A stretch of 34,046 nt of DNA from a bacterium (GTDB taxonomy: Bacteria; Patescibacteriota; Minisyncoccia; Phycocordibacterales; Phycocordibacteraceae). Shown here piece after piece: positions 920 through 10,731 of the stretch; the stretch's first letter is position 1, and every line of letters starts with the position of its first letter. A program made the translations under genes and the position numbers. The notes under the pieces were generated by a model. That model did no database searches, was not told where the DNA came from, and saw only the letters and a program-made list of their open reading frames with translations. The stretch is taken from contig JAJYCP010000005.1 of the NCBI GenBank assembly GCA_021778295.1, positions 1 through 34,046 of the forward strand, read 5' to 3'.

Positions 920-1522
920 ATGTATAAATACACCCAACCGCATGCTTCGATGCTCGTGCCGATGGTCGTAGAAAAGAGCCAGTTCGGCGAGCGCGCGTAC
1001 GATATCTACTCACGTCTTCTCAAGGAACGCATCGTCTTTCTCGGGGGGCCGATAGACGATGACACGGCGAATCTGGTGATTGCGCAGCTGCTTTTCCTCG
1101 AGGCTGAAGATCCAAAAAAAGACATTTCGCTCTATATAAACTCGCCTGGCGGCTCAGTCACCGCAACTTTAGCGATGGTCGACACGATGAATCATGTAAA
1201 GCCGGCGGTCTCCACCGTATGCGTCGGCATGGCGGCTTCGGGCGCGGCCATTCTTCTTTCTGCAGGAGAGAAAGGAAAACGGTTCGCCCTCCCGAATGCC
1301 GAGATCATGATCCACCAGCCGCACGGCGGCGCCGAAGGACAGGCGACTGATATCGAAATCACTGCAAAACAGATAATAAAACTCCGCGAACGGTTGAATA
1401 AAATTCTCGCAAAAAATACCGGTCAGTCGCTTGAGAAAATCGAGAAGGACGTGGAACGCGATTTCTTCATGACCGCGGAGGAGGCGAAGAAGTACGGTCT
1501 TGTCGACCAGGTGTACAAGTAG
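920..1522 (+). CDS. clpP: ATP-dependent Clp protease proteolytic subunit
   Basis: [55 protein letters not shown]: catalytic Ser/His motifs. Confidence 0.97.
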
Positions 1523-4413: not shown

Positions 4414-4442
4414 CCTCTATTCTTATCTTACTACTCACTCGA

Positions 4443-4457
4443 GTGCGGGATAGGAGA
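4443..4457 (-). repeat. Direct copy of the tRNA-Gly(UCC) 3' end (15 bp, gtgcgggataggaga)
   Basis: Identical to 4611-4625 at the 3' end of the tRNA; offset 168 bp. Confidence 0.85.
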
Positions 4458-4544
4458 CCGCGAGTACGCTTATCGAAGCTTACAGCTTCAGTACACCTTA
4501 TGGATATTTTGCTTCAGGAAATCGCAAAATATGCTCACAAGGTT

Positions 4545-4592
4545 TTCGATTCTCCCACGCAGGCCTCCCAGGCCTGCTATCCCGCACAATTT
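4545..4592 (+). repeat. Inverted copy of tRNA-Gly(UCC) T-arm/acceptor 3' end and trailer, interrupted by a hairpin
   Basis: ttcgattctcc (4545-4555) + cacgcaggcctcccaggcctg (hairpin) + ctatcccgcacaattt (4577-4592); the flanks together are the reverse complement of 4606-4631. Confidence 0.8.
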
Positions 4593-4611
4593 CTCACCAG
4601 GTTCTAAATTG

Positions 4612-4682
4612 TGCGGGATAGGAGAATCGAACTCCTGCTCTCAGTTTGGAAAACTGACGTTCTGCCATTAAACTAATCCCGC
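4612..4682 (-). tRNA. tRNA-Gly (anticodon UCC)
   Basis: GCGGGAT TA GTTTAATGGCAGAAC G TCAGT TTTCCAA ACTGA GAGC AGGAG TTCGATT CTCCT ATCCCGC A; full cloverleaf, no encoded CCA. Confidence 0.93.
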
Positions 4683-6034: not shown

Positions 6035-6060
6035 GGGTCGTCTCTCCCCATTTCTTTTCT
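6028..6060 (+). terminator. Hairpin followed by a T-rich tract
   Basis: atggggag-ggtcgtct-ctccccat then ttcttttct. Confidence 0.55.
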
Positions 6061-6083
6061 TTCAGTCGGGCCGCCGAGAATTG
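6056..6083 (-). repeat. Direct copy of the tRNA-Pro 3' end and trailer (28 bp)
   Basis: tttctttcagtcgggccgccgagaattg is identical to 6226-6253; offset 170 bp. Confidence 0.9.
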
Positions 6084-6183
6084 GTCACGAGTCACTAACC
6101 GAAATGCTCCGTGCACTCGCATTTCGTTAAGCGCTCTCGACCCCGGCTCGCCGGGTTCGCATGGCTCACCCATGGCTCCGCCT

Positions 6184-6212
6184 TTCAATTCTCGGGCGAA
6201 TGCTTCGCATTC
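6184..6212 (+). repeat. Inverted copy of tRNA-Pro T-arm segment followed by a hairpin
   Basis: ttcaattctcgg (6184-6195) is the reverse complement of 6244-6255; followed by gaatgc-ttc-gcattc. Confidence 0.75.
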
Positions 6213-6235
6213 TCGCCCCTCCTCATTTCTTTCAG

Positions 6236-6306
6236 TCGGGCCGCCGAGAATTGAACTCGGTCTGCTTGCTCCCAAAGCAAGTGTACTACCGGCATACTCC
6301 GGCCCG
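6236..6306 (-). tRNA. tRNA-Pro (anticodon UGG), atypical core
   Basis: CGGGCCG GA GTATGCCGGTAGTAC A CTTGC TTTGGGA GCAAG CAGAC CGAG TTCAATT CTCGG CGGCCCG A; G instead of U at position 8. Confidence 0.85.
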
Positions 6307-9813: not shown

Positions 9814-10731
9814 CTACGTGCGATTTTTCCCGTGGTATTTCTTATGAATTTCGTGCAGATGGGTATCGGTGACATGGGTGTATATCTGGGTAGTATTGAT
9901 AGAGGCATGACCGAGAAGCTGCTGGACGGAGCGGATATCGGCGCCATTGCTCAGAAGGTCGGTTGCAAAAGAATGGCGCAGTACATGGGGCGTAACTTTT
10001 TTCGTAATCCCCGCTTTTGTCGCGGCGCGTTTGATGATGCGTTCAATGGAACGAGGCGTAAGACGCGACGGAATCTGGGTACCGGTTGGAATATTCACGA
10101 AGAGCGCATCCGCCATATCTTTACGCGCCTTGAGATATGCAACAACGGCGCTTTTAGCGGCATCCGAAAGAAAAACAACACGCACTTTCTCGCCCTTGCC
10201 GCGTACCGAGAAGGAATCCCGCGCAAGATCCAGATCAGTATCAAGCGCGCACAGTTCGGAGACGCGCAGTCCGGTGGAGAAAAGCATCTCAAGTATCGCG
10301 GTATCGCGCAGATCTCTTTCCTCGGTTCCGTGCGCGGACTTCAAGAGGCGCTCAAGCTCGGCGCTCGTGATGAGGTCGAGTTCGCGCTCAGGGAGTTTTG
10401 CCAGCTCAATGCGTTCGGGCGAAATGCATTCGATCTCGCGCTTGCGCAAGAATTTGAGAAACGCACGAAGCGCGATCATGTAGTAATTCTGCGTTCGGCG
10501 TTTCATACCGCCGCCGCTAGTACCCGGTTGGCGGTTCAACCACTGGCGAAACTCGCGTATATTCTGTTCGGTAATGTCGGTGACCCTCCTAACGCCCGTT
10601 TGCGCAAAATAACGCGTAAGATAATGATCATAATTCTCGATAGTCTTCACCGCACGGCCCCGTTCAATCTCGATATACTCGAGAAATTGCCGTTTCGCAG
10701 CCTCAGCTTCCATGGGGACAGTATAACGCAC
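9814..10731 (-). CDS. Tyrosine recombinase, XerC/XerD type
   Basis: Phage-integrase-like N-terminal SAM domain; ATLFSTGLRVSELCAL-type motif, THVLRHSFATDLLSNGADIRSVQQLLGHASINTTQIYTHVT with R-H-R-H/Y residues. Confidence 0.93.
   Translation of the reverse strand: MRYTVPMEAEAAKRQFLEYIEIERGRAVKTIENYDHYLTRYFAQTGVRRVTDITEQNIREFRQWLNRQPGTSGGGMKRRTQNYYMIALRAFLKFLRKREIECISPERIELAKLPERELDLITSAELERLLKSAHGTEERDLRDTAILEMLFSTGLRVSELCALDTDLDLARDSFSVRGKGEKVRVVFLSDAAKSAVVAYLKARKDMADALFVNIPTGTQIPSRLTPRSIERIIKRAATKAGITKKVTPHVLRHSFATDLLSNGADIRSVQQLLGHASINTTQIYTHVTDTHLHEIHKKYHGKNRT

Follow-up and report, generated by a model that had tools for sequence, protein, structure and literature searches.

Many tRNA genes of Patescibacteria are followed by short folded cassettes that form a large family, apparently one not described before. 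Two of them lie in the stretch of DNA analysed here (the window, 34,046 nucleotides, from a tiny uncultured bacterium), behind the genes for tRNA-Gly(UCC) and tRNA-Pro(UGG). The members share a layout with sharp boundaries and with arms that are tailored to the adjacent tRNA. They occur in arrays and at sites that are occupied in one genome and empty in another, their cores are shared within genomes, and some units carry genes. The probable reading, in our judgement, is a tRNA-anchored cassette system with an integron-like layout and without the hallmarks of integrons. A unit would consist of a spacer, usually a terminator-like hairpin alone and sometimes one or more genes, followed by an inverted copy of the tRNA end in two parts (a'1 and a'2) separated by a hairpin (hp1), a core of type I or type II, and a direct copy of the tRNA end (A2).

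Architecture of the two units in the window

The anchor gene for tRNA-Gly(UCC) occupies positions 4611-4682 on the minus strand, as identified by both ARAGORN and Rfam, and all further features of this unit lie on the same strand. Since the unit runs on the minus strand, the copy at 4443 is distal to the tRNA rather than proximal. The copied sequence is the tRNA 3' end from the T-loop to the discriminator (4612-4631). It is followed by a trailer (4593-4610), the first 5 nt of which pair with the inverted copy. The original prediction had proposed that the tRNA end recurs as an interrupted inverted copy and again as a direct copy, with hairpins between, and each of these features was found. The inverted copy is present in two parts, with a'1 (4578-4592) complementary to the acceptor 3' strand and trailer and a'2 (4545-4555) to the T-loop and the 3' strand of the T-stem, where complementarity ends at tRNA position 53|54. 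The inverted arm is perfect, unconserved trailer bases included. Between the two parts is a 22-nt stretch containing hp1, a 19-nt hairpin with a GGG loop (GCAGGCCT-GGG-AGGCCTGC, 4559-4577) located where T-stem and acceptor meet (tRNA position 65|66).

The structured core lies at about 4465-4544, and R1, the covariance model of the type I core, matches positions 4465-4555 with 90.6 bits. The core contains a long hairpin with a bulged A (4495-4543) and hp3, a fully covarying 5-bp hairpin with a GTA loop (4475-4489). A small hairpin, hp4 (4460-4469), is a feature that type I cores have in one of their two sub-forms. The unit is closed by A2 (4443-4457), a 15-nt direct copy identical to 4611-4625 at an offset of 168 bp. 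Folded as a single strand, the region 4420-4682 gave a z score of -7.7, and none of 200 dinucleotide shuffles folded as well. Rfam, searched over this region at both gathering and permissive thresholds, matched the tRNA alone, and no other family in Rfam 15 corresponds to the unit.

The second unit, overlooked in the original prediction, lies behind tRNA-Pro(UGG) (6235-6306), also on the minus strand. It comprises hp1 (6194-6218), an inverted T-loop and T-stem copy as a'2 (6184-6193), a core matching the type II model R2 with 77.7 bits (6083-6193), and A2 (6056-6082). Its A2 spans 27 nt and repeats the tRNA-Pro 3' end and trailer exactly, in direct orientation, being identical to 6226-6252 at an offset of 170 bp. 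The type II core is unrelated to type I and occupies the identical slot behind tRNAs.

Extent of the family and its link to tRNA genes

A DNA search with the region of the tRNA-Gly unit returned the core as a match of its own, apart from the tRNA, at other places in the same genome and, in relatives, at several places per genome. In 40 aligned type I cores all 13 of the 13 predicted core pairs covary, with changes on both sides and pairing kept. A further count of compensatory changes was left out of account owing to bias from an RNA folding program. Type I cores occur in 29 of 59 relatives at up to 41 copies per genome, ranging from 0-5 in the genus of the window to as many as 41 in the other families of its order. 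In an even sample of 240 genomes from across the phylum they are confined to that same order. Type II cores are phylum-wide, being present in 46 of the 59 relatives and in 28 of the 240 sampled genomes. The genome of the window itself, with 43 tRNA genes, contains two cores of type I and four of type II. An exact search for core patterns in 85,462 species returned 73 stretches, and all those with informative titles are Patescibacteria, including Kaiser-, Taylor-, Nomura-, Vogel-, Yonath-, Zambryski- and Lloydbacteria, the remainder being titled just 'bacterium'. Viral contigs gave no exact match to three core patterns. We found no description of the cassette family in the literature covered, which left out most subscription journals and preprints.

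The association with tRNA genes is strongly oriented. Within a first set of 148 cores, 91 begin 20-114 nt behind a tRNA on the same strand and none behind one on the opposite strand, the anchor tRNAs spanning 37 anticodons. For type II cores the corresponding counts were 30 of 44 and zero. In an enlarged set of 228 distinct type I and 71 type II cores, 117 and 47, respectively, lie no more than 150 nt behind a tRNA on their own strand; for tRNAs on the opposite strand the corresponding counts are two and none. Many of the cores more than 150 nt from a tRNA belong to a unit in second or third place within an array, or stand at the end of a locus or contig; part of the cores are far from any tRNA. 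Around core copies without a tRNA, Rfam returned merely rRNA, tRNA and sub-threshold noise. Exact 13-nt copies of tRNA ends were found 27 times within 400 nt downstream of the tRNA, against once upstream, and in one copy-rich genome (G056) a type I core stands just behind about 15 of 21 listed tRNA genes. The original prediction had suggested looking behind other tRNAs and in relatives, and the outcome was strongly positive, with the same architecture behind many tRNA genes. Because it recurs with matching arms behind dozens of other tRNA genes, the arrangement in the window is far beyond chance.

Two side observations concern the surroundings of the cores. At two loci from different candidate phyla (L053 and L074), a common conserved non-coding stretch, AAAAGGCAGGTTCCATGTGTTTAGGCATAAA...AAAAGTCCGGAATTATGCCTGCCTC..., lies directly upstream of a type I core. 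It contains no tRNA and has no Rfam match, and is perhaps another anchor RNA. The loops and trailers of many units (for example L019, L034 and L051) are rich in GAGCGAAGCGA-like sequences with GCGAAGC, which is an unusually stable DNA mini-hairpin.

The substitutions within paired positions bear on the form in which the units fold. Among the non-Watson-Crick cells of the long helix, the ratio of G-T to A-C is 17:2 outside two columns that differ between the sub-forms and 39:30 with them. The idea that both DNA strands matter, drawn from the near-equal counts, was dropped because most A-C cells fall in those two sub-form-dependent columns. The ratio is 18:2 in type II cores, 4:2 in hp1 and 3:6 in hp3. 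The excess of G-T in most pairs of the long helix and in type II favours folding of the sense strand, as RNA or single-stranded DNA. Such an excess would be predicted if the unit were a host RNA element, in which a read-through transcript forms a tRNA-like minihelix of acceptor and T-stem that regulates tRNA maturation or competes with it, and the position of the units on the tRNA's own strand also fits this explanation. It is nevertheless improbable, since hp1 and hp3 show no G-T preference, compared with 24:1 in the tRNA acceptor stems of the same loci, and the element is lacking at most tRNAs and in many relatives. In several units (L021, L023 and L063) a terminator-like hairpin also stands between the tRNA and the inverted copy, which is evidence against routine co-transcription. 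Of the two ideas originally put forward, an RNA that competes with tRNA folding is not needed but might also apply. The other, an element integrated at the tRNA 3' end with attL/attR-like copies, is supported by the flanking copies and by the empty sites, arrays and gene-bearing units described below.

Tailored arms, shared cores, and occupied and empty sites

We compared the arms with the tRNA in 90 units that have a clear anchor. A2 is identical to its own tRNA at 13 of 13 nt in 43 of the 90, whereas the ends of other tRNAs reach 12 of 13 in merely 0.04% of trials. The inverted arm is perfect over 10 nt of a'2 in 56 of the units and over 8 nt of a'1 in 32. Its boundaries are equally regular: complementarity ends at tRNA position 53|54 in all 83 of 83 anchored units, for a'2 the end falls at the T-stem/acceptor junction in 57 of the 83, and the insert between the inverted arms measures 22-25 nt in 48 of 54. 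In the case of tRNA-Glu the arm tracks the acceptor 3' strand (as the Watson-Crick partner of T71) and not the 5' strand, which identifies it as an inverted copy rather than a decayed duplicate of the tRNA.

The cores follow the genome and not the tRNA. The nearest relative of a core is in its own genome in 40 of 90 cases (mean 7.3 and maximum 18 with shuffled labels) and at the same anticodon in 2 of 90 (2.6 expected). In G056, the core at tRNA-Gly(GCC) and the one at tRNA-Pro(UGG) have about 98% identity over the stretch from GAA to GTTC. Their units differ in the trailer, the two inverted arms, hp1 and A2, each of which fits its own tRNA. Cores seem to travel between the tRNAs of one genome.

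Orthologous sites both with and without a unit occur within a single genus. Between tRNA-Arg(UCG) and tRNA-Gly(GCC), the genome of the window (G000) and three others (G014, G016 and G019) have an empty spacer. In G013 this spacer is occupied, and what follows A2 there can be aligned with what follows the tRNA at the empty sites. A further genome, G008, also has a unit behind tRNA-Arg(UCG), and several orthologous tRNA-Gly(UCC) genes within the genus have none. Tandem arrays whose units have differing cores exist as well.

Part of this pattern could be explained by homologous recombination between the tRNA end and A2, which would give precise loss, together with gene conversion of the cores. 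In the main rival explanation the units would be old, vertically inherited structured elements that are repeatedly lost, without any need for transposition. Gene conversion or replication template switching would then homogenise the cores within a genome, and hairpin-templated correction would keep the arms matched to the tRNA. The sharing of core copies within a genome without hp1 or the trailer agrees with this, as do the strong compensatory changes in the cores; the direct repeats would make precise loss easy, and hairpins are known to arise and to be maintained through template switching (PMC8794818). Set against it are the strong patchiness inside a single genus, whose genomes have 0-5 type I copies each, an inverted arm in the window that is perfect even at the unconserved trailer bases, the presence of two unrelated core types in one slot, and the use of the same site to close gene-bearing units. 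On balance we consider inheritance without transposition unlikely.

The system of mobile cassettes that we prefer would, for its part, add and remove units through site-specific recombination inside the shared end of the tRNA. Recombination at this position would leave the tRNA intact, and arrays would extend by repeated insertion. Neither an excision circle nor an insertion event was seen. Simple site-specific recombination leaves the tRNA-specific tailoring of the arms unexplained. We speculate that the tailoring is best explained by hairpin-templated copying, or template switching, which is known from replication (PMC8794818). Here it might act on the end of the tRNA together with its near-palindromic partner and so fit the inverted arm to each new tRNA. 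Template-switch hairpin evolution would yield reverse-complement copies and paired stem changes like those in the units; unlike them, it is a mutational process and not an element, and it leaves the conserved core and its spread unexplained. How the arms of an element come to be re-tailored for each host tRNA is a testable question in its own right.

Gene-bearing units, possible mobilisers and unusual loci

Most units contain no gene, and gene-bearing units are rare in the sample. Five unit ends close gene-carrying units of 0.7-3.7 kb, the clearest being those at tRNA-Asn, tRNA-Ser and tRNA-Gln. The tRNA-Asn example (L052) is a 691-bp unit in which a DUF4260 gene is followed by a terminator-like hairpin, a'1, hp1, a'2, the core and A2. 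Behind tRNA-Ser (L266), a 1273-bp unit carries a short-chain dehydrogenase (SDR) gene. At tRNA-Gln (L267) there are two consecutive units, and a type II site together with a copied tRNA-Gln end closes each of them. The first, of 3.7 kb, contains several ORFs including one HNH endonuclease and one DUF4145 protein, and the second, of 1.4 kb, a 308-aa ORF. A TspO-like gene lies inside an array at tRNA-Asn (L071), and a damaged DUF218-like gene in another unit (L126). A search for longer units linked to a tRNA by an exact copy of its end turned up just a few, and none of the cargo ORFs tested is an integrase.

Head-to-tail arrays of optional genes, each followed by a folded, imperfectly palindromic site, recall integron cassettes. 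As with attC, the structure is conserved, the stems are variable and the sites of one genome resemble each other. That the units are genuine integron cassettes, or form an attC array (CALIN), is nonetheless extremely unlikely. Integron integrase (IntI, TIGR02249) scored above its curated cut-off in none of the 59 relatives, the matches being merely Xer-like, and the R''/R' pair of attC (RYYYAAC...GTTRRRY) was found in none of 327 sites, as against 4 in shuffles. These two results led us to reject an integron identity. Unlike integron cassettes, moreover, the units are mostly without a gene, are anchored at many tRNA genes and have arms made of forward and reversed tRNA 3' ends.

A second comparison is with tRNA-integrated islands, ICEs and tandem accretion, which also insert at the 3' end of a tRNA gene, leave the gene intact between direct repeats and form arrays by repeated insertion. 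A direct repeat of the tRNA 3' end flanks the insert here too. The units differ in being mostly about 0.15-0.25 kb long and without an integrase, in ending with a conserved structured core, in holding an inverted copy of the tRNA end, and in the use of the same core at most kinds of tRNA. REP and BIME elements mobilised with RAYT (Y1) are likewise short, palindromic, non-coding repeats scattered between genes, whereas the present units are larger, multi-hairpin and tRNA-specific, and several copy-rich genomes have no Y1.

No dedicated mobiliser was found among the genes checked in copy-rich genomes, namely reverse transcriptase, Y1 transposase and tyrosine recombinases. A retroelement was rejected on the absence of RVT_1 from six of these genomes (G025, G032, G033, G034, G036 and G056), and Y1 transposase on its absence from three (G025, G032 and G034). 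In most copy-rich genomes there is just one tyrosine recombinase. In the genome of the window the sole one detected is Xer-like, and its gene lies within the window at 9814-10731 on the minus strand. It is possible that the recombinase acting on the units is the housekeeping Xer enzyme. The folded terminal site may be what the recombinase recognises, comparable to the attC sites of integrons, which are recognised by shape. A more far-reaching proposal, which we put forward tentatively, is that Patescibacteria have a new class of gene-cassette mobility, with tRNA genes as docking sites for arrays of cassettes, with folded ends tailored by copying to each individual tRNA, and with units moved as folded DNA by a non-integron recombinase, possibly Xer. 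Genomes of Patescibacteria are tiny and their gain of genes is poorly understood, and a clade-wide tRNA-docked cassette system would, if true, be a new route of gene exchange in these bacteria. With the R1 and R2 covariance models, further members of the family can be searched for immediately.

A few loci show unusual arrangements. In one genome (G025; L037, L079 and L107), complete type I cores are nested in the long hairpin of another core. At L101 the core (991-1081, plus strand) is inverted between flanking copies of a tRNA end, with a tRNA at 1135-1207 on the minus strand, as if the core had flipped between its own inverted arms. A core-less remnant behind tRNA-Gly(GCC) (L204), GTGCAGGTAAG-TAGA-CTTGCCCAC, consists of the inverted arm joined to the direct copy. 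Behind tRNA-Pro(UGG) at L008, the 3' half of tRNA-Pro is present in tandem, with its T-loop (TTCG^ATTC) split by 28 unrelated nt.
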